From a virus: a stretch of DNA of 48,900 bases. The notes under the pieces were generated by a model. The model searched no databases and had not been told where the DNA came from. It was given only the letters and a program-made list of their open reading frames with translations. Each line of letters opens with the position of its first letter. The first letter of the stretch is position 1. Positions 20,274-45,397 of the stretch are shown here, piece by piece. A program made the position numbers and the translations under genes. Location: positions 1 through 48,900 of the IMG/VR virus record IMGVR_UViG_3300032294_001472; one strand, given 5' to 3'.

Positions 20274-20780
20274 TTACCCCGGCACCCAAGACTTTGACCA
20301 CTCTGCATTCACCACAATATCCGTCTTAGGTATGCCTTTTCTGTTCGCCAAGCGAACCACTTCTTCTGATTCCATCTGCAACCTTTGGCAGATTTCCTCC
20401 ATGCATAGCCCGTCCTTAATCATGCTCTCCACAATATCTGCCATCTTCAACACTGCATGAGTTCCACGGGCTCTATTGTGCCGAATAGTAGCCATCATTT
20501 TTGAGGCCGAGTCCTTCGGAGTAAGATACACAACAGGCACATATCCGCCTGTCAGCTTCATTAACTCCTTCGAACCACTCACTGTCCAACGGTGAAATCC
20601 GTCAACAATGGTTCCATCCTCGTTTGCCACTATCGGTTGTGTCCATCCGTCTTCGAGTATGCTAATTTTAAGTAGCCTCAGTTCTGGTGGAGCAACCGCA
20701 TTCGGGTTGTAATTGTTCGGTTTGAGTTCATCCCTGTGAACCCACCGAACTTGATTGATCGGTTGTTTCTCTTTTGCCAT
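20274..20780 (-). CDS. ParB-like nuclease-domain protein (IbrB-like)
   Basis: A 168-residue protein with a ParB/sulfiredoxin-type domain: VHRDELKPNNYNPN (N-terminal strand-loop), EDGWTQPIV and the IVDGFHRW motif (about 58-65), the equivalent of the ParB GxxR box. The C-terminal helices (ILKMADIVESMIKDGLCMEEICQRLQM...VVRLANRKG) include an HTH-like pair. Its start overlaps the 3' end of the PAPS-reductase-like gene by about 50 nt. ParB and PAPS-reductase-like proteins occur as pairs (IbrB/IbrA) in phages and enterobacteria, where they affect gene expression; the chemistry is unknown. Confidence 0.85.
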   Translation of the reverse strand: MAKEKQPINQVRWVHRDELKPNNYNPNAVAPPELRLLKISILEDGWTQPIVANEDGTIVDGFHRWTVSGSKELMKLTGGYVPVVYLTPKDSASKMMATIRHNRARGTHAVLKMADIVESMIKDGLCMEEICQRLQMESEEVVRLANRKGIPKTDIVVNAEWSKSWVPG

Positions 20781-22134
20781 CTTTCTTCACATTTTCATTC
20801 AACACTTGGCGTGTTAGTAATCCGTACCCTTTAATCCTTGGAGCGTTGCGCTCCTTCTTACCGAATTTCTCTCTCGCCTCTTCCAACGTAATTCCCAACC
20901 GCTTTAGGCTTCGGTCTGCCTCGGTTGTCATGCTGCCCGCCTGCCGTCCTTTGAAGTCGCCTTTGATAGCGACCTTAGCCAAGAACTTCCAACTGCATCC
21001 GCTCACCGGATGTGGTTCGCTGTCGTGCAGCGGGTCATCTGTTTTTGAGTAGTGCAGCTTGATCAGGCTGTTCATGTTCTCCCTAATCAAGTCCCGGTAC
21101 TCAGGTTCGCTGTAGGTCTCAATAACCATCTGCGCATACTCACGCCAGGTTAGGTTCTCGGGCTTGTCCCAATTTGAGTACAGCTCCGTGTTGGCATACC
21201 GCCACGCGGTTGCAACACCCTTCACCCGGTGAACCATTTTGTGCCACAGCTCAGGCCAACACTCGGCATACACCCACAAACCCCTCAACGGCTCCTCTCC
21301 AAACGGTGGGCACACGCGCTGCGTCAACAGCCTGTTGTACAGTTGCGTCTTGTTGAAGATGTCGTAAGTATGATTGTAGTCATACCCCTTCAACTGGACC
21401 AACTTCCATACGTCTTCACTACTCCAATCGTAAATAGGAAACGCCCTGTAAGCATTCTTAAACTCTGCCTTTGAGGTCACAAAAGCATCATTCTTCTTGC
21501 TGGCAATTACGCGGTACCTGCGTAAGCTTTCCTGTGTCCGAATTCCCGTCAACACACATACCGTTCCCATCTCGTTCGGGAAAATCTTCGGCATCCACTC
21601 CTGAAAGCTGTCGCCAAACTTGAACGCCTGGTGCTCAGTGATTGCACCTTCGGGAAGTTCCCGCACCCACAAATCGCGATCATCAGGATTCCAACAATAC
21701 CACCACGGCTGCTCGTTGCTGCACGCGTTCCGATGTTTCACCGGAAGGCAATACCACTCGAGCATCACGTCAGGGTGTTGTCTCACTCTCTCCACATACT
21801 CAACGGTTGTCGGATGAATGGCTTCTTCGTCAACGAAGATAGCATGCACCGGCAACCTTCCGAGTTCTCTTGCCACCTCAATAGTGAGGTTCAACACTGC
21901 CGTGCTGTCCTTCCCACCAGAGAAGGAAACGCATAGGTGATCAAAACGTTTGTATAGATAACGGATGCGGTCCTTGGCCGCTTCGTAAACATTTACGTCA
22001 GTAAATTGCTTGTTACCGGCAAGCGTAAGAACCCCACTGCATAGCCATAGCTTCAGCGACACCCTGAAATGTCTTTGAACGTAGTTTTGCACGTTCCGGC
22101 CCAGGTGGCAAATAGTGTAGTCTTTGTGCTTCAT
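20728..22134 (-). CDS. PAPS reductase-like PP-loop protein (IbrA/DUF3440-like)
   Basis: A 468-residue member of the phosphoadenosine-phosphosulfate reductase/PP-loop ATP pyrophosphatase superfamily. The PP-loop is SFSGGKDST (SGGKDS at about 72-77 with this start). Further motifs are FVDEEAIHPTTVEYVERVR, TGIRTQESLRRYRVI and a Cys-containing C-terminal part (VCPPFGEEPLRGLW, SGCSWKFLAK) as in IbrA-type proteins. The conserved region begins near KQFTDVNVYEAAKDR, so the first 40 or so residues, which overlap the upstream methylase-like gene, may not be translated; no ATG lies closer. Adenylation chemistry is expected, the substrate unknown. Confidence 0.85.
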   Translation of the reverse strand: MKHKDYTICHLGRNVQNYVQRHFRVSLKLWLCSGVLTLAGNKQFTDVNVYEAAKDRIRYLYKRFDHLCVSFSGGKDSTAVLNLTIEVARELGRLPVHAIFVDEEAIHPTTVEYVERVRQHPDVMLEWYCLPVKHRNACSNEQPWWYCWNPDDRDLWVRELPEGAITEHQAFKFGDSFQEWMPKIFPNEMGTVCVLTGIRTQESLRRYRVIASKKNDAFVTSKAEFKNAYRAFPIYDWSSEDVWKLVQLKGYDYNHTYDIFNKTQLYNRLLTQRVCPPFGEEPLRGLWVYAECWPELWHKMVHRVKGVATAWRYANTELYSNWDKPENLTWREYAQMVIETYSEPEYRDLIRENMNSLIKLHYSKTDDPLHDSEPHPVSGCSWKFLAKVAIKGDFKGRQAGSMTTEADRSLKRLGITLEEAREKFGKKERNAPRIKGYGLLTRQVLNENVKKDGKRETTDQSSSVGSQG

Positions 22135-22726
22135 TTTTCGGTAATCGTTTCCATTCATCTTTTACATCTTTTGTTGGTTTAAGCTTTGGCAATCCTTTCA
22201 GCCAAAAACAAGTAGCCTTACTTTCTGTGTGTCCAAATTGATAGGGTTGTATTAGTTGGTTATATTTTTGCCCTATCAATTCTACTGCATACTTGTGTGG
22301 TATCGGATTTTCAATAGCTATCAATGGTATCGGGGCATTAAGTAAGGCTTTGAAAAATTCAGCACCTTCTTTTAAGTTTTGCCACCTTTCTTCATTCCGG
22401 CTTCCATCTTTATTCCACAACCAGCATACACCGCTATTTGTAAGGTAAGTGCAAGTTGGGTGTCCTATCATCATATCCCAGCCGTCATTTAACACGTTCA
22501 AAACATCGCCTTTTATATGCCATTCAGGGTGTCCACCGCTACAATCTTGCAAGTCGCAGCTATAAGCATCAAAACCAAGTTTACGCAGTTCTATTGTTGT
22601 GGCCTGACTTTCCTCACAAGCTACAAGAACCCGAACGCCAGCCGGTAACACTGCATACCCGGCAATGGGGGCTGACGTGCTACTTTTGGCATTTGTGCTA
22701 TTATCAAAGTTCAGTTCTAATTTCAT
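22013..22726 (-). CDS. Cytosine-C5 methylase-like protein (Rossmann fold, atypical motif IV)
   Basis: A 237-residue protein. VRVLVACEESQATTIELRKLGFDAYSCDLQ is a SAM-binding motif I region like DNA cytosine-C5 methylases; HIKGDVLNVLNDGWDMMIGHPTCTYLTNSG is the counterpart of the PCQ loop, with HPTC in place of PPC; FWLKGLPKL follows. Usual target-recognition motifs are lacking and the protein is shorter than true C5 methylases. It is a widespread phage family often annotated as DNA methylase, but activity is not established. It lies within a cassette of ParB, PAPS-reductase and cupin genes and its 3' end overlaps the next gene. Confidence 0.72.
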   Translation of the reverse strand: MKLELNFDNSTNAKSSTSAPIAGYAVLPAGVRVLVACEESQATTIELRKLGFDAYSCDLQDCSGGHPEWHIKGDVLNVLNDGWDMMIGHPTCTYLTNSGVCWLWNKDGSRNEERWQNLKEGAEFFKALLNAPIPLIAIENPIPHKYAVELIGQKYNQLIQPYQFGHTESKATCFWLKGLPKLKPTKDVKDEWKRLPKNEAQRLHYLPPGPERAKLRSKTFQGVAEAMAMQWGSYACR

Positions 22727-22786
22727 GGTTTGTGCTTTTAATTCCCCACTGCGGGTATGCTTTTACGTTTCTTGCCTTTCCCATAC

Positions 22787-23551
22787 TCACTTAGTCCTGA
22801 TTTCATCAATGTACTTAGCTGAAACACCATCTACAATCGTTCTGTTAATCATCGGATGGTCCTCATCCGTAGGGCCAAAATCCGAATCGGGATGCCACGC
22901 GATTACATCCATCCCGACTTCATCGGTTCGGAAACAATGGCTGCCTGCAAAATGGTACTCACCGTCCAAGCCAATAACCTTTGTGCCGTTCTCAGGATGG
23001 ATGATGAAAATCATTCCAGGCCTAAGAGGCACGTTTCCGAAAGGCGTCACACACTCTCCGCGCCCATTGGCAACAAGTCCGATGCGAACACTCGGGTGAG
23101 TATGCATCGTCTGGTTGATGCCAGGCGGGAAATGCAGGTGATTTAAACACGGGTCACCCATTTTCACAGGCGGTACCAAAAGGCTGTCCGTGCATCCATC
23201 AATGTAGCGCAGCCTGCCGACTGGCTCCACCGGACCACCGTAATTAGTCATGCCCTTGAAACCGATACGCTCAATAATCACAACCATTGCGTCTTCGTGC
23301 GTCTGAATGAAGCCGTCTGTAAGACTGGCGTACATCCCACGTACGAGCGGAAACGCAGCGTTGTGGTAAGCAATACCCTGATAAACGTAAACGTAATACG
23401 TGCCGTCTTTCTTCAACAGCATCGTTTGCTTGCCTGCCAATGCGTGCAAGCGACACGGGTATTTTGAATCTGCCATATCAGACAGCACCCCGGTCTTAAA
23501 GTTGAACGAACTAAACGATTCGTTCTGCTTCATTTCTCTCTCACTTTCCAT
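22787..23551 (-). CDS. Cupin-domain protein
   Basis: A 254-residue protein with a cupin core in its C-terminal half: CLNHLHFPPGINQTMHTHPSVRIGLVANGRGEC carries the HxH of motif 1 (MHTHPS) and the Gly-rich turn; FIIHPENGTKVIGLDGEYHFAGSHCF provides motif 2 with His. The N-terminal part (about 30-130) forms a second beta-rich domain. Cupins bind a metal and include oxygenases, isomerases and binding proteins. The start overlaps the ParB gene stop by 11 nt, so the gene belongs to the ParB/methylase/PAPS cassette. Substrate unknown. Confidence 0.78.
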   Translation of the reverse strand: MESEREMKQNESFSSFNFKTGVLSDMADSKYPCRLHALAGKQTMLLKKDGTYYVYVYQGIAYHNAAFPLVRGMYASLTDGFIQTHEDAMVVIIERIGFKGMTNYGGPVEPVGRLRYIDGCTDSLLVPPVKMGDPCLNHLHFPPGINQTMHTHPSVRIGLVANGRGECVTPFGNVPLRPGMIFIIHPENGTKVIGLDGEYHFAGSHCFRTDEVGMDVIAWHPDSDFGPTDEDHPMINRTIVDGVSAKYIDEIRTK

Positions 23552-24212
23552 TCTGTTCGTATTTATCGACTAACACCATGAGAGCATCTTCAAGAAGCTG
23601 CAGCGCGTACTCATTTCGGATTCCGCTCAACACCTCAACCAACCTCACTTTGTTCTGATGCTTCATCACCAACTCGAATGTTGAGTGTTCATCATCAGAA
23701 GATCGCGGGCGTACCTGTTGCAGTTCGCCTTGCTGTTTCGTAGGCTCAGCTCTTCCACCTTCGGTATTTAGCAAGTCGCTTTGCCATGATTCAGGCAACA
23801 CGCCAGCGTCTGCCTTCAAGAGCGCATCCAACTCCTGTTCATCGAAACCGGTTATCGACAAATCGAAGTCTTGCTCGGCCAAAGCAGACAGTTCCTCACT
23901 CAACTTCTCCAAATCCCATCCACTATTCAACTGGATGCGGTTGTCTGCTAATACCAGCGCACGCGCCTGGCGTTCGGACAGGTGACTCAGCACTATGCAC
24001 GGAACTTCTTTCATGCCGAGCTTCTGAGCTGCCAGAACTCGACCATGGCCGGCAATAATAGTGAAGTCGCCTTGAACTAACACAGGATTGACAAAGCCAA
24101 ACTCCTCAATGGATCGGGCTATTTGCTCAATCTGTGCTTCAGGATGCGTTTTCGCATTCCTCGCGTATGGTACGAGCCTGTCAGTTCTCTTGTTGACTAT
24201 CTTGATGTCCAT
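23541..24212 (-). CDS. ParB/sulfiredoxin-like nuclease-domain protein
   Basis: A 223-residue protein with a clear ParB domain: MDIKIVNKRTDRLVPYARNAKTHPEAQIEQIARSI, FGFVNPVLVQGDFTIIAGHGRVLAAQKLGM (GHGR box, about 50-56), and LSERQARALVLADNRIQLNSGWD. In many phages this domain precedes a DNA methylase; here the methylase part is absent and the C-terminus is short and charged. The start at 24212 fits family members; an upstream in-frame ATG at 24332 would add 40 unrelated residues that run through an operator-like repeat, so it is not favoured. Confidence 0.87.
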   Translation of the reverse strand: MDIKIVNKRTDRLVPYARNAKTHPEAQIEQIARSIEEFGFVNPVLVQGDFTIIAGHGRVLAAQKLGMKEVPCIVLSHLSERQARALVLADNRIQLNSGWDLEKLSEELSALAEQDFDLSITGFDEQELDALLKADAGVLPESWQSDLLNTEGGRAEPTKQQGELQQVRPRSSDDEHSTFELVMKHQNKVRLVEVLSGIRNEYALQLLEDALMVLVDKYEQNGK

Positions 24213-24239
24213 CGTGCTGCAAAGGAAATATCTTTCTTC

Positions 24240-24275
24240 GAAGTTTGCAAACCTTAAATCGTGAAGTTTGCAAAC
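24240..24275 (-). promoter_or_regulatory. Paired palindromic operator-like sites
   Basis: The 13-mer GAAGTTTGCAAAC occurs at 24240-24252 and 24263-24275. Each contains the perfect palindrome GTTTGCAAAC (centres 23 bp apart); the right copy extends to a 14-bp palindrome. They lie 28-63 nt upstream of the ParB-like start, and the left copy supplies a TTTG that could act as a -33 element of a minus-strand promoter. Two helical turns between centres suits binding of a dimeric regulator. Confidence 0.55.
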
Positions 24276-24504
24276 TTGCGCGTAAGTGCCGTGAACATCA
24301 GGACACAAAAATGATTTTTGCCGTGCCGTCATGGCAGGCGCGGCAGGCAGGATTCAACCCAAGTGCGGGTTCTGCAACTAGCGAAATCTCGGGGTGTTCC
24401 CACCCGCAACGCCTTGTAAGGGGAAGGACCCACGACTTTGTATGGTTTTTTGGACGTTGTTATAATGAAGGTGTGGGCAAACAGGGCGCATTCAAACTCA
24501 ATGG
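24276..24504. other. Gene-free stretch with GC-rich inverted repeats
   Basis: This 229-nt gap between the ParB-like gene leader and minor tail protein Z contains no convincing gene. It is GC-richer than neighbours between 24330 and 24430 and can form a 7-bp stem (24364-24370 with 24402-24408) or a competing small hairpin GGGTG/CACCC near 24392-24405. On the minus strand a segment near 24351-24360 resembles a tRNA T-arm but no cloverleaf can be completed. Could be an untranslated RNA or a remnant. Confidence 0.4.
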
Positions 24505-34399: not shown

Positions 34400-37189
34400 C
34401 TATTTTTCGGTCGTTCCCAAAATGCTTTTTAACGGCAGAGCTACTGCCCTGGTAATTGCGCCACTTGCAAAACGTGCCGTTGTCTTTTCCTTCGCTCCTT
34501 CGTGGCGTAGCAATATGCGGTGATGATTCTTGTTCCATGCCGTATCTCTGAGCATTTTGCGTATCTGTTCGGAGCTGTGCGAAACAACCAGGTGCCCATC
34601 CATTGGAGGGGCGAACTGCTCATTCTCCACTTTTAAGCCAAGTCGTTTCAGCGTGTCGTTGGCCACAACAGGTCCAACAACGGCATCGTGTGACAACCCG
34701 GCTGCGTTCTGCACCAGCTCACCCACGTTGCGCTCAACCGTTCCGTGCTCACCGTTTACCCTTACCATTTGGTCAAGGATGTAAGACACCAGCGACATTT
34801 CGTCCTTGGTCCCGTCCAGTGCACGTTCTTCGCTCCAATCCTTTTCAGACACCCACTTTATTGCTGCCTCGTATGAAACCTCTCTATCGGAAAACAACGA
34901 GTATGCACCCGCCAACAACGCTCCGAGCTGATCACCCTGGCGTTGCTCACCGAGTACCGATGCAGCAGCGTTGGCAAACGTCTGAGCGTTCTTCAATATC
35001 ACCGGAAGCAGCGTAACAGTTCTTGCCTGCAACCGCTGTACAAATTCGTCAGTAAAAAGCTCGTTGTATAGCTCTTGCAGTTTCTGCCAGCGCTCTTTTT
35101 TCAACTTCTCATTGTTTATTGCCCGCATGGACAGAATGGTAATACGGCTGCGGTCTGATTGTTGTGCAGCCTGCACCCCGATAGATGCGAACGCGAAACA
35201 CGAGCGTATGCTGTACGACTTGGCTGCACCCGTGGCAGAGCCTTTAATGAGCAAGCCACCGTCATCCGTTGAGGCCGAACGCATCAAGGTAAGGATGTTT
35301 TGAATCCGCTCTGCGCTGCGCTTGTCGTCTATGTCCGCCTCATCGAAAACAACAGGCAAGGCATCGTGGTTGAGCGTTTGGCGCAAGCCTGCTTCTGATG
35401 TTTCGCCCTGGACTGCAAGCGCGGTTTCTCCCAACAGTCTGCGGACGATGTTTTTGAACACCCACGATTTTCCGGTGCCTGCCGACCCTGTAAGCCAAAT
35501 GTGTGGACGCCATCTAAGCGCACCGCAAAATGGAGCCACAACACACCACCCTGCTAAGAGGTATGTGTTCACGTCACGCTCCCAATTGAGCATGCTCAGC
35601 ACCTCAATCAGTCGGTTGGCTTCTTTCGTTTTCAGAGGGTTGCTCGTTTCAACACCTAAGTCGTCAGACGTTTCATAGACGAACCTGGACTCGAGCGACC
35701 CGAGCTTTTGATTTTGTCCGTCAACAATCAGTTCGCTTCCGGTGTGAATGATTACGCGTTCCTTATCCGTCCATGCACCGCGCCCGCGGATGTAGCGCTC
35801 ATTGAACGGACCAGTTTTGATGCTGGTGCGTATGAGAAATTCCTGAGCGCCTTCGATGCTGATTCCTGCCCTTCCTGATGGGAAATGTGTTTCCCAAAAA
35901 GACAAAGGGGCAAGGGATATGAGCGCAGATTTGCTTATTGCAGATGCCGTGAATGATAGTGTTGCCTTAGCCTCGTGCTGGAAAAAATGGTGGCGTAGTG
36001 AGCCTTCGGCCTTATCCCAACCGAGAAACTTAAAGTGTGCGGAGAAGCCAAGCGGATCATAGCCCTTATGTGGCTCAGTGAAGCCTGGCTCACCTTCGTG
36101 GTCGTATGTCGGTTCAGGATTGATTGGTGGCGGTTCGGGATTGCTTGGTGGTGGTTCGGGCTTCAACTCTTTGAACTGCCAACGTCCGTCCATTGGACCG
36201 AATTCGTAGACCGATTCACGGCCTATCTGAATCATGCGCCACATGTTGCCGTGCGTTGGTGGCACATCGTCCACTAATCGGCTGAGCACGAACTCGCGGA
36301 GCTGCCCAGGTTGCCATTCCGTGTCCGCACAGTCCCAACCCTTCGGCAATGTAGTGTCGAGCGGAACGAGCTTGCTGAGGCTCAGCATGTGATTGGTGAG
36401 GTGGCGAACATGCAGCATGGCGCTGATGCCTTGCACATCGTTATCCGGCCACATAAGCACCTTGCGCCCCCACAGTGGAGCCCAATCCACATGCGCGATA
36501 GCCATCGAACCACCCGGCCATGTAGTTACAACCACACGCGAAGGGTCGAGCTGTGCCTGTGCTGCGTCTGCGGTTTTCTCGCCTTCAACGAGCAGTACGG
36601 TTGCCGATGGGTTGGCTTCGAGTAGGTGCAGGTTGTACAGTGGACGAGGGTTGTCGAACCCTTGCCAACGCCATTCCGAGCGGTTGCCGTCCGTAGCCCA
36701 TACATAGGGCAGAACTTCCTTGCCGTCAGGCGTATCGAACCTGCACACGAAACCATACAGCCTGCCGTCCGCAAGCCGGTACGTCCATGCCTTGGACGGT
36801 AGCCCGTGTCGGTAGTGGCTAACCTCTCCTACCAATTCATCGGGTGGTATTTGCTGCTGCCACGGACGAGCCTGTTTCGGCTTGGCTTGGCGTTTCGGTT
36901 TGTCGCCTGTCTGGTCGCTCACTGCGTGTGCGTATATCTCCTTGCAAGATTCCTGAAATGTTTTTCCGGCATAGTCCATTACAAACGCAATAGCATCACC
37001 GCTCCAACCGCAGGCAAAACACTTCGCCAGGTTTTTAGAAGGCGTGACTGTTAGTGATGCATGGTGGTCGTCATGAAAAGGGCATGTGGCTTTTAAGTGT
37101 GCGCCCTCTTTTTTTAAATGTATATACCGCCCGATAACATCTGCTATCGGGTTATTGTCTATAATACGTTGAGTGTCGATTCGCTGCAT
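34400..37189 (-). CDS. DnaG-type primase fused to helicase (DUF927-like)
   Basis: A 929-residue replication protein. CHC2 zinc finger: C36, H39, C57, C60. Toprim-like domain: E202 in LLVEGEK and D249/D251 in WPDNDVQG. A Pro-rich linker (about 344-368) joins the DUF927-like helicase half, which has Walker A GSAGTGKS (568-575) and Walker B VVFDEAD (613-619), and later NNEKLKKERWQKLQELY helices. It combines primer synthesis and unwinding at the fork, a common arrangement in phages and satellites. A terminator follows; the upstream leader is an A/C-rich run rather than a Shine-Dalgarno site. Confidence 0.92.
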   Translation of the reverse strand: MQRIDTQRIIDNNPIADVIGRYIHLKKEGAHLKATCPFHDDHHASLTVTPSKNLAKCFACGWSGDAIAFVMDYAGKTFQESCKEIYAHAVSDQTGDKPKRQAKPKQARPWQQQIPPDELVGEVSHYRHGLPSKAWTYRLADGRLYGFVCRFDTPDGKEVLPYVWATDGNRSEWRWQGFDNPRPLYNLHLLEANPSATVLLVEGEKTADAAQAQLDPSRVVVTTWPGGSMAIAHVDWAPLWGRKVLMWPDNDVQGISAMLHVRHLTNHMLSLSKLVPLDTTLPKGWDCADTEWQPGQLREFVLSRLVDDVPPTHGNMWRMIQIGRESVYEFGPMDGRWQFKELKPEPPPSNPEPPPINPEPTYDHEGEPGFTEPHKGYDPLGFSAHFKFLGWDKAEGSLRHHFFQHEAKATLSFTASAISKSALISLAPLSFWETHFPSGRAGISIEGAQEFLIRTSIKTGPFNERYIRGRGAWTDKERVIIHTGSELIVDGQNQKLGSLESRFVYETSDDLGVETSNPLKTKEANRLIEVLSMLNWERDVNTYLLAGWCVVAPFCGALRWRPHIWLTGSAGTGKSWVFKNIVRRLLGETALAVQGETSEAGLRQTLNHDALPVVFDEADIDDKRSAERIQNILTLMRSASTDDGGLLIKGSATGAAKSYSIRSCFAFASIGVQAAQQSDRSRITILSMRAINNEKLKKERWQKLQELYNELFTDEFVQRLQARTVTLLPVILKNAQTFANAAASVLGEQRQGDQLGALLAGAYSLFSDREVSYEAAIKWVSEKDWSEERALDGTKDEMSLVSYILDQMVRVNGEHGTVERNVGELVQNAAGLSHDAVVGPVVANDTLKRLGLKVENEQFAPPMDGHLVVSHSSEQIRKMLRDTAWNKNHHRILLRHEGAKEKTTARFASGAITRAVALPLKSILGTTEK

Positions 37190-37224
37190 ACATGATTGTT
37201 GTGTGTTGTGTTGTGTGTGTGTTG

Positions 37225-37620
37225 TTATTTCGCGTGAAACCTGATGATATCGAGAGCGCCTTCTGGTGTGCGGACAATTCCGGCAATGCCACCATTTTCG
37301 GCAACAAAGTTCACAAAATTGAGCTGCTTCGGATTCACGCGCCCGGTTTCAGATTTCACTTCTATGGCCGTGAAAACTGCAACTTTTTTGCCCACCATTT
37401 CGGGCGTAATTTCAACGGCGGTCCAACCAATAAGGTCAGAACTTCCTTCGCATAACCCGGCATGAATCGGACGGGCGTTTTCAATTAGCACGTTGCCTGA
37501 GCCGTTGATGCGTTTGGCGTTGCCAATCCAGCCCATGCCCGTGTTGTTGCGGAAAATTTTGACGTGCGGAAGCTTGCCCAAGGCAAGTTCTATCATCCGC
37601 ATGATGTTAGCTTCTTTCAT
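37225..37620 (-). CDS. VRR-NUC domain nuclease
   Basis: A 131-residue endonuclease of the PD-(D/E)XK VRR-NUC type: GSSDLIGWTAVEITPEM carries the catalytic Asp, FTAIEVKSETGRVNPKQLNFV gives the ExK plus Gln signature, and VAENGGIAGIVRTPEGAL is the last strand. These standalone nucleases cut branched DNA or flaps during phage replication. Start and the upstream stop overlap (TAATG). A second ATG at codon 7 is possible. Confidence 0.88.
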   Translation of the reverse strand: MKEANIMRMIELALGKLPHVKIFRNNTGMGWIGNAKRINGSGNVLIENARPIHAGLCEGSSDLIGWTAVEITPEMVGKKVAVFTAIEVKSETGRVNPKQLNFVNFVAENGGIAGIVRTPEGALDIIRFHAK

Positions 37621-37730
37621 TAGTCTCTCGGAATAATAATGTATAAAATCAGGATAAAAACAATGGCTGATGCCATCAGCGGGTTCTGATGGAATAAGTC
37701 AATAATAACCTGCAAGCCTACTTTATCCAT
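37620..37730 (-). CDS. 36-residue membrane micropeptide
   Basis: A short gene with ATG at 37730 overlapping the upstream stop (ATGGATAA) and its own stop overlapping the nuclease start (TAATG). Product MDKVGLQVIIDLFHQNPLM then SAIVFILILYIIIPRD: a C-terminal single-pass membrane helix with a short positively charged end. Coupling at both ends supports translation. Function unknown; phage micropeptides of this sort often alter host membrane enzymes. Confidence 0.6.
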   Translation of the reverse strand: MDKVGLQVIIDLFHQNPLMASAIVFILILYIIIPRD

Positions 37731-38109
37731 TCTTGGTGTTATTAAACGATGATGTAATAATCGGCCAGTATTTCTTGGCTACAGGTTCGGCACCAATTAG
37801 CATTGTTCCATTGCCGTCCGCTTCAATGCTGTCAACGATGGATTTTGCAAGTTTTGCGCTGTTGAAAACTAATGAGCGGTCATTGTTGTAAGCACGAAGT
37901 ACGAAGCCTTCTTTCTCAACAGTAATGTACCAATCTTTTGGATTTGTTTCGTCTTGGTGCAACAACACCTGGTCGCCCGATTCGAGCCCAAGCAGCTCTT
38001 TTGCTGATTTGTTGAGGTAAATAGCTCCTGTTTCGGAGGACACATGAATTGTTGGTTTGCCTGTACGAACAAATGATGAGTTCTGAGGCGTGAAGGATTT
38101 TAATTTCAT
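37723..38109 (-). CDS. Unknown protein with AbrB-like motif
   Basis: A 128-residue protein with a segment IHVSSETGAIYLNKSAKELLGLESGDQVLLHQDE (residues about 20-55), close to the swapped-hairpin AbrB/MazE DNA-binding motif, followed by KDWYITVEKEGFVLRAYNNDRSLVFNSAKLAKSIVDS. First gene behind the promoter at 38135-38163. Many Bacteroidota phages carry such a gene; a DNA-binding regulatory role is possible. Confidence 0.7.
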   Translation of the reverse strand: MKLKSFTPQNSSFVRTGKPTIHVSSETGAIYLNKSAKELLGLESGDQVLLHQDETNPKDWYITVEKEGFVLRAYNNDRSLVFNSAKLAKSIVDSIEADGNGTMLIGAEPVAKKYWPIITSSFNNTKNG

Positions 38110-38183: not shown

Positions 38184-39590
38184 TTACCGAAACGCCTGTT
38201 TCTTCATCCTATTGTTCCAAACGTTTCTTGCCCAACCTGGCTTATAACCACGTTGTGCTGCTATGCGTTCAAGCTCTTCGAGTGTCTGAGCTCGAGCTTG
38301 CTCTGTTATCTTTTGCCTGCGCAACCTCAATCTCTGATCAGGTGTCAGCTCTACTAGTTCTCCGTCTACTTGTTTTGGTGCGGTATCTTCTACTTTATAT
38401 ACATTGCCACATACAGGGCAGCGTGGCGCAGGCTCATGTATCGCGTAACACTTGTCGCATTGTTTCACCGGAATTGTCTTTTCCTGCTCTCCTTTTTTCT
38501 TTGGCTTGCGCTTCTCTCCTTCGAGGCTCCAATCTCTCGGTTCATCAGGCAGGCCGTGTGTCAGCACATTGCCAACATGGTCGAGAATTACGGCTCTGTC
38601 TTTTCCGGCACAAGGACGCAACGCACGCCCAACCTGCTGCAGATACAGCCCGAGCGATTGTGTCGGACGTAACAGGATAGCCGCACCAATGGCAGGAATG
38701 TCCGTGCCCTCGCTGATCAGGTCGCATGAGGTGACCACATCAACTGTTCCGTTTCCGAGGCCATTCAGAATGCGTTTGCGTACATCATCATCCAAGGAGC
38801 CATCCGCGTGATAGGCGCGATAGCCTGCCCGTCTGAATTCCTCTGCCACATGCTGCGCATGATTCACCGACACGCAGAATGCCACCGCAGGAACGCCAGG
38901 GCACAAACGCTCATAATGGGCCACGGCATCACCGGTAATGGTTGGCTTATCCATGAAAGCTGCCAGCGCGTCCTTCTCATAGTCGCCCATGCGTGTGCGT
39001 AGGCCTGAAAGGTCGAGACGTTGTGCAGGGGCATATATAACGGGTTTCACAAGATAGCCGCGCTGTATGAGCTCCTGCACTTGTGGGCCGAGAATCATAT
39101 CATCGAACACGCCACCCGCTTCAACTCCCAAGCCTGTGCCATCAGCGCGACAAGGTGTGGCGGTTACTCCAAGAATTCGCGCGGTGTTGTAATGATTTGT
39201 GATGGTTCGCCAGGTTGTGGCCAGCGCGTGATGCGCTTCATCAATAACAACCAGGTCAAATGAATTGAATAAGTGCAGCCGTTTTATCATGGTTTGTACC
39301 GATGCCACTTGCACCGGAGCCATAATGTCGGGCGTGTATTGCGGGTTAACGAGGCCGTGCCGCACACTTGCCCGTGTGAGTGCTGCCGATGTTTGCCGTA
39401 ACAGTTCTACTCGGTGAACAAGTATCAGGACGCGTTTTCCGCGCGCTGCGGTAGTTGCTGCAATGTATGAGAAGACAACTGTTTTGCCTCCACCAGTTGG
39501 AAGCACCAAAAGCGGAGCGCGGTTGCCCTGAATGAAAGACTGCCTGATATCCTGCACCGCACGTTCTTGGTAGTCGCGTAATTTTAACAT
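38184..39590 (-). CDS. DEAD/DEAH-box superfamily II helicase
   Basis: A 468-residue helicase with Walker A LVLPTGGGKTVVFSYIA (motif I), DEAHH motif II (VVIDEAHHALA), GVTATPCR motif III and motif VI LGLYLQQVGRALRPCAGK (QxxGRxxR). The C-terminal part has a CxxC...CxxC zinc-like element (CDKCYAIHEPAPRCPVCGN) and basic helices. Related to RecQ/Res subunits of restriction helicases and to UvsW-type phage helicases, used for branch migration or origin remodelling. Its start overlaps the upstream gene's stop. Confidence 0.93.
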   Translation of the reverse strand: MLKLRDYQERAVQDIRQSFIQGNRAPLLVLPTGGGKTVVFSYIAATTAARGKRVLILVHRVELLRQTSAALTRASVRHGLVNPQYTPDIMAPVQVASVQTMIKRLHLFNSFDLVVIDEAHHALATTWRTITNHYNTARILGVTATPCRADGTGLGVEAGGVFDDMILGPQVQELIQRGYLVKPVIYAPAQRLDLSGLRTRMGDYEKDALAAFMDKPTITGDAVAHYERLCPGVPAVAFCVSVNHAQHVAEEFRRAGYRAYHADGSLDDDVRKRILNGLGNGTVDVVTSCDLISEGTDIPAIGAAILLRPTQSLGLYLQQVGRALRPCAGKDRAVILDHVGNVLTHGLPDEPRDWSLEGEKRKPKKKGEQEKTIPVKQCDKCYAIHEPAPRCPVCGNVYKVEDTAPKQVDGELVELTPDQRLRLRRQKITEQARAQTLEELERIAAQRGYKPGWARNVWNNRMKKQAFR

Positions 39591-39805: not shown

Positions 39806-40015
39806 CTACTTCCGTTTCTTCGCTATTACCCGGTACAGCTTGCGCAGCTCCAATACCGTTTTCGGTTCCTGATGTTTCCAGCGCTCAACCGTTGAGCGCG
39901 ATACGCCAGCCTCCCTGCACACAGCAGTAAGGTCGGTGCCTGCATCCGCGCACGCAGATTGCAGTGAGGAAAATATATTCCCCGTGATGTTCAATGATGA
40001 ATCGTGTTGTGCCAT
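39806..40015 (-). CDS. Cro/CI-like HTH regulator
   Basis: A 69-residue protein with a clear HTH (DLTAVCREAGVSRSTVERWKHQ, residues about 28-49) and no dimerisation extension beyond the basic end, as in small Cro-type repressors. It is the first gene leftwards of the divergent promoters at 40037-40074 and most likely binds the inverted repeat AAAATATTGC/GCAATATTTT there. It would govern the choice between the leftward early operon and the rightward recombination operon. Confidence 0.8.
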   Translation of the reverse strand: MAQHDSSLNITGNIFSSLQSACADAGTDLTAVCREAGVSRSTVERWKHQEPKTVLELRKLYRVIAKKRK

Positions 40016-40036
40016 GTATTGTTATGAATTTTTGAG

Positions 40037-40074
40037 CAAAAATATTGCATTTATCGAGAATAGCAATATTTTCG
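40037..40074. promoter_or_regulatory. Completely overlapping divergent promoters with operator
   Basis: The inverted repeat AAAATATTGC (40039-40048)/GCAATATTTT (40063-40072) carries two promoters. Minus: -33 TTG (40066-40064), 19-nt spacer, -7 TATTTTTG (40044-40037), an exact TAnnTTTG. Plus: TTG (40045-40047), 19-nt spacer, TATTTTCG (40067-40074). Each half-repeat supplies the -33 box of one promoter and the -7 box of the other, so only one polymerase can bind at a time. Confidence 0.8.
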
Positions 40075-40103
40075 CAAACTAAATCACAAACACACTGATT
40101 CAC

Positions 40104-40982
40104 ATGAACACAACAGACAACGACAAGTATCACGCAGATACGTCACGTATCGGCAAATCTGGACTGGATTACATTCACCAGTCACCCGCTCACTATTATG
40201 CCGCGTATTTGGACCCTAACCGCATACGCGAGAAACAAACACCTGCACTTATTATGGGCAGCGCTGTTCACATGGCCGTATTCGAGCCCGAAGACTTCAC
40301 CAAGAAATTTGCCGTGCTGGATGATTCCGAAATCTGCGCTCAAATTGGTGGCAAGTCTCCGAAGCAAACAAACAGATATAAGGAGTGGCTTTCCGATTTT
40401 GGCTCAACCAATAGAGGCAAAACCTTTTTATCAACTGATGATTTTGCTACGTGCTTGAAAATTAGGGACGCAGTATTTAATCACCGGGCAGCAAATCTTC
40501 TTCTTGATTCTGGTGTAGCTGAACAACGCGTAGACTGGTCATGGCAAGGCGATGATGAAAACTTCAACCCCATCCAGGTGCACTGCAAATCTAAAATGGA
40601 TTGGCAGAGCACCGGAGGTGCCGCTTCTGGCTTTATTGTTGATTTGAAAACTACCGAAGATGCAGGCAAGTCGGGATTTGGCAAGTCGGTATGGAACTAT
40701 CGATATCATGTACAAGCTGCATTCTACCTTGATGCGTATCGATATCAGTACGGCCAAGATGCTCGAGGTTTTATATTCATAGCCGTGGAAAAGAAACCAC
40801 CCTTTGCTGTGGCTCTGTATTATGCAACGCCTGAAATGATTGATATAGGCAGGCGCGAATATGAGCGCGACCTAAGAATATACCACCGCTGCCTGCTTAC
40901 AAATGAATGGCCTGCGTATGGTGATGGTATCGAACCGATTGAACTACCTGCATGGGCATACAAACAAGCAAACAACTCATAA
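40104..40982 (+). CDS. RecE-like exonuclease (PD-(D/E)XK, DUF3799)
   Basis: A 292-residue nuclease of the RecE/PDDEXK_12 group, first gene of the plus-strand operon. Motifs: SGLDYIHQSPAHYYAAYLDP (early helix), PALIMGSAVHMAVFEPEDF, GFIVDLKTTEDAGKSGFGKSVWNYRYHVQAAFYLDAYRY (DxK core and the Q of the exonuclease), and FIAVEKKPPFAVALYYATPEMI. It degrades one strand to create 3' overhangs for the RecT partner encoded 16 nt downstream. The leader is A/C-rich (AAACACACTGATTCAC). Confidence 0.92.
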   Translation: MNTTDNDKYHADTSRIGKSGLDYIHQSPAHYYAAYLDPNRIREKQTPALIMGSAVHMAVFEPEDFTKKFAVLDDSEICAQIGGKSPKQTNRYKEWLSDFGSTNRGKTFLSTDDFATCLKIRDAVFNHRAANLLLDSGVAEQRVDWSWQGDDENFNPIQVHCKSKMDWQSTGGAASGFIVDLKTTEDAGKSGFGKSVWNYRYHVQAAFYLDAYRYQYGQDARGFIFIAVEKKPPFAVALYYATPEMIDIGRREYERDLRIYHRCLLTNEWPAYGDGIEPIELPAWAYKQANNS

Positions 40983-40998
40983 CACAACATACACGAAC

Positions 40999-41772
40999 AT
41001 GACAGAACAAACAACACAGCTCGTTGTTAGCAAGGCTAACGAACAGCAAGCACTATCTGTGTTTTCAAACACAGGTGCATTCGAACAAGCACAGCGATTT
41101 GCACAGGCATTGTGCAAGTCCGACATTGTTCCGCAGACCTATCGGAACAACCTTCCCAACACACTCGTTGCGCTCGAGATGGCAAACCGAATGGGCGAAA
41201 GCCCGCTTATGGTTATGCAGAACCTGGACATCATCCACGGAAAGCCTGCATTTAACGGGAAGTTCACAATCAGCCGCATCAACACATGCGGACGGTTCTC
41301 TCCGCTTCGATTCCGATACACAGGCGAAGGCGACCACCGCAGCTGTGTTGCATACGCAAAGGATGCTGCCACAGGCGAGATGCTCGAGGGACCACCCGTG
41401 AGCATCTCTATGGCGAAGAAGGAAGGTTGGTTCACGCGCAACGGAAGCAAATGGCCGACTATGCCGGACATGATGCTCATGTACCGCGCGGGTACATTCT
41501 TTCAGCGCATGTACGCGCCCGAGCTCACGATGGGAATGCAGACCACAGAGGAGCTGCATGACATCGGCTTTGAGACCACATCAGCAGCAGCTCCCGCAGC
41601 CAATCCGATTGCTGCGCTGAACAGCGAAGCAGCAGCCAAGCCGACACGCAGGCCGCGAGCTTCGAGGCCTGCCGCTCCCGAGATTATCGACACGCCTTCC
41701 GAAGAGATGAGCAGCACACCCGCAACCGCAGAGCCACCCGCTCCCAATCCATCAGAAGAAGAGTTGATGTAA
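40999..41772 (+). CDS. recT: RecT-family single-strand annealing protein
   Basis: A 257-residue RecT: QRFAQALCKSDIVPQTYRNNLPNTLVALEMANRMGESPLMVMQNLDIIHGKPAF (residues about 30-85), SPLRFRYTGEGDHRSCVAYAKD, and TMPDMMLMYRAGTFFQRMYAPELTMGMQTTEEL are diagnostic. A Pro/Ala/Glu-rich tail follows (about 215-257), which is usual for SSB-interacting recombinases. ATG 40999 is preferred to upstream codons inside the exonuclease gene. RecE-like and RecT form the phage recombination pair. Confidence 0.95.
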   Translation: MTEQTTQLVVSKANEQQALSVFSNTGAFEQAQRFAQALCKSDIVPQTYRNNLPNTLVALEMANRMGESPLMVMQNLDIIHGKPAFNGKFTISRINTCGRFSPLRFRYTGEGDHRSCVAYAKDAATGEMLEGPPVSISMAKKEGWFTRNGSKWPTMPDMMLMYRAGTFFQRMYAPELTMGMQTTEELHDIGFETTSAAAPAANPIAALNSEAAAKPTRRPRASRPAAPEIIDTPSEEMSSTPATAEPPAPNPSEEELM

Positions 41773-43557: not shown

Positions 43558-43686
43558 ATTTGCTCGGTTCCTCGCACCGCTCACGGTATAGTTTCAACCG
43601 CGTATGCACTTGCCACCGAGCAGGCCGCACGTCACTCCGTGCTTGATGAACGTTGCTTACCTTCTTGATTCTAGGCAACGGTTTGG

Positions 43687-43758
43687 TTGCGGGAGTGGGA
43701 TTCGAACCCACCGTCTTTGGCTTATGAGGCCAACGAGTAACCAATTCTCTGTCCCGCA
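43687..43758 (-). tRNA. tRNA-Met/Ile2 (anticodon CAT)
   Basis: Acceptor TGCGGGA/TCCCGCA (7 bp), short D-arm GAG..CTC with GGTT in the loop, anticodon arm TTGGC-CTCATAA-GCCAA with anticodon CAT, T-arm GTGGG-TTCGAAT-CCCAC and discriminator A. CCA is not encoded. Could be elongator Met or an Ile tRNA modified at C34; position 1 T rather than mispaired C argues against an initiator. Confidence 0.88.
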
Positions 43759-43847
43759 ATGTTGCCGTCACAGCAGGGAGTGACGGCTCATGTGCGTCCA
43801 CCGTTTTTTAAAGACTTTTCCAAGCGCACAACCTGATTATGTCTTCG

Positions 43848-43938
43848 TTCCCGAGAGCGGAATCGAACCGCTGACACTAAGCACTGCACCCTTTTTAATA
43901 GTTATGTGCCTACGCTCTGCCAACTGAGCTACTCGGGA
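43848..43938 (-). tRNA. tRNA with enlarged anticodon region (identity unassigned)
   Basis: Acceptor TCCCGAG/CTCGGGA, D-arm GCTC-AGTTGGCA-GAGC and T-arm AGCGG-TTCGATT-CCGCT are all perfect, with A73. The segment between D- and T-arms is about 18 nt longer than in a class I tRNA: the anticodon stem TAGGC/GCTTA encloses a 25-nt loop instead of 7. An intron-like insert, a class II variable arm or a decayed gene are possible. Anticodon cannot be stated. Confidence 0.65.
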
Positions 43939-44062: not shown

Positions 44063-45397
44063 TTATCTTACTAAGTTTCTTCCTATCTCAAGGCGCAAAT
44101 AATCTAAGCGAATAATGCCTGCTGCTGCATCTGTTGTGCTTTCTCCTACGTAAACACCCGCTCCTGTTTCCCTTCCTACTGCTTTTGGCACATTAGAAGC
44201 AACACTTGATTGCCATTGCTGAACACCTGCTTCATTGAATATCGTAAACGTGGCCGCTGTTGCATCGCTGTTTAATTCGACAGTACACGTGTACCAAGTA
44301 TTGTTCGCTACTGCAAACGTTTCCGTTGTAGCGGTTTCCACATTGTTCTGCCTTGCCCTACCTGTTGCGGTTAGCGCTGTTCCATTACCTACAATATCAA
44401 TATACACACCATCCACAGGTGCCGTTGCTGATGTAGCATCTAAAAATCCTAACCTACATACCGCAGTTGCTCTTACGCCTCTCATCTGAAACACACATAC
44501 GAACTTCTCACTGCCTGATAAACGGAAAGCCAATACATCCGTCATAATTCGATAGCCACCATTAGCCGTTGTGCTATCCCTTAATTCTACGATTCCTGGA
44601 TGATTCGGCTCTGCTGCAACTTGAACAATAGTTCCACCCGATATAGCCGTTCCGGCTAATCCTTGGGCAAATGGAGTTGTCACGGCCAAAAATTCTGTTT
44701 CAATAACCGCCATTTGAAGCCTTGTGGCAACATCTGCTTTAGCATCTAATGCCGACTGAAGGCCTGTAACATCCGCTATTGCGTGTGAGTGAGCTGATGG
44801 AGGAAACGATGTTGGCTTTCCTGTAATATCAGCCCAATCAGATGAACCTGTTGGCCCTGTCGGTCCCGCAGGACCTGTTTCGCCTTGCGGACCCTGTGGA
44901 CCCGTTGGACCAACGTCTCCCTGCGGACCTGTTGGTCCTGTATCGCCTGTATCTCCCTTGTCGCCTTTCGGCCCTTGCGGACCTGTCTGTCCTTGGACTC
45001 CTTGCGGACCCTGTGGACCTTGTGGACCAACGTCTCCCTGCGGACCTGTTGGTCCTGTATCGCCTGTATCTCCCTTGTCGCCTTTCGGCCCTTGCGGACC
45101 TGTCTGTCCTTGGACTCCTTGCGGACCTGTCTGTCCTTGGACTCCTTGCGGACCCTGTGGACCTTGTGGACCAATCGGACCTTGCGGACCTCTGAGCATC
45201 TCGATTTGTTCGGGCGTAAGGTCGTTGAAATCGACCTCTCCCATCGGGCCTTGCGGACCTGTTGGACCAGGTGGACCTTGCTGACCTGGTATGTAGATAA
45301 GTGGATACGAAGTGCCATCAAACACAACAACAGGCTTGAATTCATCGCCCATTATCTCGATTGGTGTACTTGTTGTATTCAGCTCTACTACTATCAT
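44063..45397 (-). CDS. Collagen-like tail fibre protein
   Basis: A 444-residue fibre. Residues about 40-185 are Gly-X-Y collagen repeats ([19 protein letters not shown] type, units with [14 protein letters not shown]), expected to form a triple helix. An adjoining [21 protein letters not shown] module, shared with the fibre-like gene at 11290, links to a C-terminal beta-rich domain (about 220-444) that ends in LDYLRLEIG and may bind the receptor. The collagen part is encoded by a 117-bp tandem unit, suggesting length variation. Confidence 0.85.
44906..45127. repeat. 117-bp-period direct repeat in the collagen-like region
   Basis: 105 bp at 44906-45010 are repeated without change at 45023-45127, 117 bp (39 codons) apart; a third partial copy of the last 37 bp follows. 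The perfect identity at DNA level, not only protein, shows recent duplication. Confidence 0.92.

Follow-up and report, generated by a model that had tools for sequence, protein, structure and literature searches.

Predicted overlapping divergent promoters between a small HTH regulator gene and recE in a viral genome, and the same locus in its relatives

The divergent locus and its predicted promoters

We analysed a stretch of viral DNA of 48,900 nt (IMG/VR record IMGVR_UViG_3300032294_001472, positions 1 to 48,900), here called the window, in which two gene blocks diverge from an 88-bp intergenic region (40016-40103; 72 % A+T). The leftward block begins with the gene of a small Cro/C1-type helix-turn-helix (HTH) protein of 69 aa (39806-40015, minus strand), which matches HTH_26 above the Pfam cut-off and is a candidate regulator of both promoters described below. 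The second main leftward gene encodes a ResIII/DEAD helicase (38184-39590, minus strand; 69 % identical in the relative L184), and the rest of this replication block (34400-38109, minus strand) encodes a 128-aa protein, a VRR-NUC nuclease and a CHC2 primase-like protein of 929 aa. The order of the block resembles that in Pseudomonas phage Dolphis and Aeromonas phage ST4. Rightward, the gene of a recE-like exonuclease VIII (40104-40982, plus strand; DUF3799/phrog_412) is followed by that of a recT-like annealing protein (40999-41772, plus strand; phrog_561, E 9.7e-73). These Pfam and PHROG matches agree with the first-pass annotation, which had named a Cro-like HTH gene and recE as the flanking genes.

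Several other features of the window were recorded. The 706-aa protein encoded at 13581-15701 matches a family of combined head protease and major head protein (phrog_4523), which suggests a fused protease-capsid gene product. A phosphoadenosine phosphosulfate reductase-like protein is encoded beside DNA methyltransferase and ParB-like nuclease genes (20728-24332), possibly a DNA-modification cluster. A tRNA-Met gene and another tRNA-like gene, whose anticodon call is incomplete, lie at 43684-43938, and a collagen-like protein with G-P-Q repeats is encoded at 44063-45397, where the DNA carries tandem repeats of 117, 27 and 9 bp. The window gave no match to Phage_integrase or Resolvase, though the record may be incomplete.

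We read the intergenic region against the consensus of the primary sigma factor of Bacteroidota, TTG-N19-TAnnTTTG, a phylum to which the host itself is only predicted to belong. Promoters with a −33 box and variable spacing have been described in Bacteroidota (PMC7366714), and the TAnnTTTG box lies at −12 to −5 in F. psychrophilum (PMC9723704), from which we predicted the transcription starts. The putative promoter of the HTH-helicase operon (40037-40066, minus strand) reads TTG-N19-TATTTTTG and matches the consensus in full, with the −33 TTG at 40066-40064, the −7 box TATTTTTG at 40044-40037 and a start at about 40032. The putative recE-recT promoter (40045-40074, plus strand) reads TTG-N19-TATTTTCG, with the −33 TTG at 40045-40047, the −7 box TATTTTCG at 40067-40074 and a start at about 40079. 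Thus, TTG stands at N19 on both strands, and the −7 box is perfect on the HTH side and carries one mismatch to TAnnTTTG on the recE side. The cores overlap by 22 bp and the predicted starts are ~47 bp apart; leaders of 21 nt (HTH) and 29 nt (recE) separate the boxes from the starts of the genes. The two −7 boxes are separate and stand back to back with 22 bp between them, so that each −33 element lies directly beside the opposite −7 box. The first-pass annotation had described two completely overlapping divergent promoters at 40037-40074, and on our reading of the sequence their coordinates, spacing and orientation are all right. Its promoter match was exact for the HTH box; the mismatch in the recE box had gone unmentioned.

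Translation signals bear on the choice of consensus. Shine-Dalgarno-like signals (8 %) do not exceed the random level, and the leaders are A-rich (40 % A vs 22 % genome-wide); the translation starts resemble those of Cellulophaga phage phiST, unlike those of the Pseudomonas and Aeromonas phage loci. Together with the TAnnTTTG pairs, the missing Shine-Dalgarno signals and the A-rich leaders indicate a Bacteroidota host, and to judge from these signals the host very probably uses a Bacteroidota primary sigma factor. Against certainty on this point, the terminase finds its best matches in Wolbachia WO and Rhodobacter phages, and the contig of one relative, L274, was binned as Phycisphaerales. Either this phage contig was misbinned or the host range is wider. 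A search of public genome contigs returned three loci, none from Bacteroidota.

The promoter elements coincide with an inverted repeat, AAAATATTGC (40039-40048) and GCAATATTTT (40063-40072), with 10-bp arms, a 14-nt loop and centres 24 bp apart, within a wider dyad (40022-40089) that is 71 % complementary. Most of the 10-bp repeat is explained by each −33 TTG abutting the opposite −7 TAnnTTTG. The consensus leaves 11 dyad pairs free, and 8 of these are symmetric (binomial p 0.004, post hoc). When the 88-bp region was simulated with a Markov model, 55 of 5000 sequences contained an inverted repeat with arms of at least 10, and none of 20000 showed the two-way interleave (18 consensus positions, one mismatch allowed). 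Across the window, TTG-N17-21-TAnnTTTG was not enriched (6 found vs 4 in the reversed control), which also weighs against certainty about the host. As read from the sequence, the promoter layout is more than chance; the consensus was picked after the sequence had been seen, so that relatives provide the better test.

The HTH protein likely binds DNA. HTH_26 was matched by 10 of 15 family members, and the homologues sit at the same place in relatives, next to the helicase gene. The structure model consists of four helices (mean pLDDT 79; the N-terminal 10 residues are unreliable), and the solved folds closest to it are those of HipB, SinR and the 434 repressor, all with E above 0.2. Other family members match transcriptional regulators and repressors; the best PHROG of the window copy is CII-like, and the protein could instead be an activator. 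GCAA-N5-TTGC (40036-40048), which has a right-hand counterpart with one mismatch at 40063-40075, was considered as a candidate operator half and rejected: the window shows no enrichment of it (5 found vs 2.6 expected), and wherever a −33 box abuts a −7 box, CAA-N5-TTG results of itself.

The same locus in relatives

Searches of viral contigs with recE, with the helicase and with both combined yielded many loci with the same divergent order, and 13 lineages of recE/HTH phage relatives, the window included, were compared. Among annotated phages, no close DNA relatives were found beyond recT matches of ~100 bp. Two perfect back-to-back TAnnTTTG boxes are present in 12 of the 13 lineages; the window, with its one mismatch, is the thirteenth. 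In simulations, the chance of a perfect pair with a gap of between 0 and 50 was 0.0007-0.01 per intergenic region tested. The paired −7 boxes have been kept although recE is only ~40-68 % identical, and both promoters are therefore probably real. The HTH −7 box is perfect in all relatives compared. AT-richness does not account for the boxes, as three of the loci (L550, L559 and L547) have 54-59 % G+C.

In L184, whose proteins are 69 % (helicase), 46 % (recE) and 39 % (HTH) identical to those of the window, the region reads CAAATATA-N22-TATATTTG: both boxes are perfect, the gap is 22 bp as in the window, and the HTH box lies 21 nt from the ATG in both. The −33 elements are less constant. For recE, TTG-N19 is retained in L184/L525, L526, L195/L527, L550, L559, L019 and L033 (L525 is the same locus as L184, and L527 the same as L195); in the L019 and L033 groups, the TTG stands on the other side of the HTH box. 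The composite CAAAnnTA-TTG-N19-TAnnTTTG, that is, the HTH −7 box, the abutting recE −33, N19 and the recE −7 box, occurs in five relatives from three lineages (L525, L526, L527, L550 and L559), and for each of them, none of 10000 simulated sequences contained it. On the HTH promoter, a TTG −33 is present in the window and absent from all relatives compared. As only the window has TTG −33 on both promoters, its perfect symmetry is a local elaboration. That each half serves as −33 of one promoter and −7 of the other, with N19 spacers, as the first reading had it, thus holds in full in the window and not in its relatives.

The distance between the boxes falls into classes of 11-13, 22-23 and 47-48 bp. 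It is 11 bp in the L007-L058 group, 12 bp in the L059-L067 group and 13 bp in the L528 group and L542; 22 bp in the window, L184/L526/L195, L550 and L559, and 23 bp in L274 and L547; and 47 bp in L197 and 48 bp in L194/L558 and L196. The cores overlap in 10 of the 13 lineages compared; in the three lineages with boxes 47-48 bp apart they are adjacent, so overlap is not obligatory. The interleaving had been called perfect and rare, which is right for the exact symmetric form, found only in the window, and overstated for the overlap as such. On the recE tree, on which several deep forks are unsettled, the 22-bp class requires at least two changes. The 13 gap values cluster near multiples of ~11 bp (simulation p 0.02 for a period of 10.5 bp and 0.0008 for 11), which we take as a lead only, because the lineages share ancestry, no period was set in advance and 47-48 bp fits 10.5 poorly.

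The inverted repeat varies as well. In L184 it has 10-bp arms and a 22-bp loop, with 32 bp between centres. The motif comparison across related phages that had been proposed as a check came out in part: the two −7 boxes are kept, and neither the full two-way symmetry nor the 24-bp spacing is. With the spacing not conserved, the suggestion that the 24 bp between centres would suit a repressor dimer is not supported; a spacing of 24 bp is better suited to two adjacent dimer sites than to one small Cro-type dimer. In L274 (JAESRA010000064.1), a perfect 14-bp inverted repeat, TTTATGCAAATATA and TATATTTGCATAAA, extends across both −7 boxes.

In L034, L035, L039, L044, L051, L052 and L057, a DNA-methyltransferase-like gene separates the HTH gene from the shared promoter region. 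The promoter pair is unchanged in these relatives (group A phages, e.g. L034 and L051). With this insertion, the leftward promoter reads the methyltransferase gene first, and the HTH gene need not be first. In most lineages, the HTH gene is retained at the same place.

We also searched viral contigs for similar box pairs at other genes. The pattern for the two-way geometry, CAAANNTATTGN{8,30}CAATANNTTTG, matched at least 98 stretches, and the 80 of them that were listed were analysed. Among the matches listed, the exact geometry (gap 16) occurred 7 times, compared with 11 for gap 11 and 8 for gap 13, and none lay in a divergent intergenic region by the ORF test. We rejected the full two-way form as a recurrent class, since gap 16 was not above other gaps among the matches listed. 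With the general back-to-back pattern, TGCAAANNTAN{8,38}TANNTTTGCA, 10 of the 81 matches listed were in divergent intergenic DNA, compared with 75 of ~3200 random positions; a reversed control pattern gave 4 of the 80 matches listed (Fisher p 0.16). The enrichment is not significant against this matched control, and the other box pairs serve as examples only. One is the divergent pair of ssb and a 54-aa gene, in which the boxes are 12 bp apart with leaders of ~15 nt on each side (L300, L328, L336, L363 and L364; for L336, the ssb side only), a candidate for another shared promoter. Another, in other viral contigs, is a groEL-like gene opposite an 82-aa gene, with back-to-back boxes at gap 16.

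Shared control, compaction or switch

We propose that the region is probably a compact control region shared by two divergent early operons, with graded, autoregulated allocation and not a self-sustaining two-state switch. The leftward operon (HTH-helicase-VRR-NUC-primase) and the rightward operon (recE-recT) would be served by one region in which a single polymerase footprint would span both promoters. If one promoter is occupied at a time, the operons would share initiation events, in a ratio set by relative promoter strength. The HTH protein, as first leftward product, would most likely bind in or near the region, repress its own promoter and adjust recE-recT expression. The presence of two boxes on both promoters makes competition between polymerases plausible. 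Against this reading speak the recE −7 box, which has a mismatch in the window and is perfect in relatives, the consensus not being enriched across the window, the three lineages with boxes 47-48 bp apart, the uncertain host and the CII-like match of the HTH protein, which would fit an activator. We favour graded, autoregulated sharing over both pure compaction and a two-state switch; the weights given to these three are judgements, not computed values.

Simple compaction is less probable, though the likeliest of the alternatives. Here, two promoters were squeezed into ~90 bp, their competition is not regulatory and the HTH protein may act elsewhere. Given leaders of 21 and 29 nt, 88 bp leave room for only a 22-bp box gap; close back-to-back boxes also occur at regulator-less pairs (ssb/54-aa and groEL-like/82-aa), and the family includes gaps of 47-48 bp. 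The dyad symmetry beyond the consensus in the window hints at more than compaction, as do the retention of the HTH gene in most lineages and gaps that form classes and no continuum. A further reading, which we put forward tentatively and hold to be rather unlikely, is that in a group of Bacteroidota-type phages the HTH/recE region is a selected composite in which −7 abuts −33 and the gaps lie mainly near one or two DNA turns (11-13 and 22-23 bp), polymerase orientation and the HTH protein jointly setting the ratio of the operons.

A genuine two-state switch, in which polymerase exclusion and the HTH repressor lock one side and so separate two phage programmes, is improbable. With −33 and −7 elements on both promoters, competition could exceed that at weak promoters, and in E. 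coli a strengthened −35 created competition (PMC12825309). The Bacillus subtilis plasmid pLS20 offers a precedent of overlapping promoters with an Xre-family regulator (PMC4207663). However, exclusion alone amounts to competition without memory: overlapping promoters exclude a second polymerase, yet this by itself makes no switch (PMC12825309, PMC4207663). In E. coli, none of the five promoters tested was strong enough for competition before one of its directions had been strengthened (PMC12825309), and in pLS20 overlap yields a switch only when the promoters are unequal and the regulator affects them differently (PMC4207663). The published work thus does not support the earlier claim that mutual exclusion of polymerase would by itself make a two-state switch. 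Moreover, the window yielded no integrase or resolvase (in a record that may be incomplete), the genes of both operons serve replication and recombination and not opposite programmes, and the HTH promoter has no TTG −33 in the relatives.

It is very unlikely that the promoter match is a chance feature of AT-rich intergenic DNA with one or both promoters unused. This was a post hoc reading of one A+T-rich stretch, and the exact two-way geometry was not enriched among the viral-contig matches listed, but the paired boxes are conserved in distant lineages, including the G+C-richer loci L550, L559 and L547. We rejected an RNA hairpin or terminator as scarcely credible on position, for although the repeat, read on the plus strand, gives a more stable fold than its shuffled versions (−12.7 kcal/mol, z −3.3), the repeat lies upstream of both predicted starts and so in neither transcript, the site has no terminator call and both genes point away from it.

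Known systems and meaning

The closest counterpart is the Pc/Pr pair of pLS20, regulated by RcoLS20: as in the window, divergent promoter cores overlap, one promoter drives an Xre-family HTH gene (HTH_26 in the window) and the other a DNA-handling operon, comparable to the recE side (PMC4207663). The two differ in sigma consensus and replicon, and operators, looping and regulator effects were measured in pLS20, whereas the window is known from sequence. In the window, unlike pLS20, each −33 element lies immediately next to the −7 box of the opposing promoter.

Bidirectional promoters of E. coli and Salmonella likewise consist of near-symmetric DNA and should take one polymerase at a time, but they share the −10 and their starts are mostly 18 bp (also 10 or 23 bp) apart (PMC12825309, PMC10268837). 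The window lies outside this class as delimited by Warman and Grainger (shared −10, starts 10-23 bp apart). At acrR/acrA of E. coli, a regulator gene also diverges from its target operon with a shared promoter; there the regulator is of the TetR family, the −10 is shared and competition is driven by an activator on one side (PMC12825309). A lambda-type switch fits poorly, as an integration function was not found in the window and the gene opposite the HTH gene is recE, not a repressor gene. In Dolphis, ST4, Bordetella phage PHB04 and Enterobacter phage phiT5282EW, an HTH gene (or small ORF) with the helicase gene also stands opposite a recE-like exonuclease gene, but the intergenic regions are 128-233 bp long and no comparable promoter overlap was found in them. 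The gene order, present in Pseudomonas, Aeromonas, Bordetella and Enterobacter phages, is thus wider than the promoter overlap. In kind, these are overlapping divergent promoters, already known, in a variant with abutting −7 and −33 boxes.

The claim of a switch would be of little importance without regulator data. If both promoters are used as predicted, the family would provide a natural comparative test set for overlapping promoters with sigma boxes unlike those of E. coli. The same gene pair with gaps of 11-13, 22-23 and 47-48 bp would then represent overlapping and non-overlapping versions of one circuit, and the region would be a compact two-direction promoter for Bacteroidota. Should the composite reading be true, it would be a shared-promoter design distinct from the shared −10 type.
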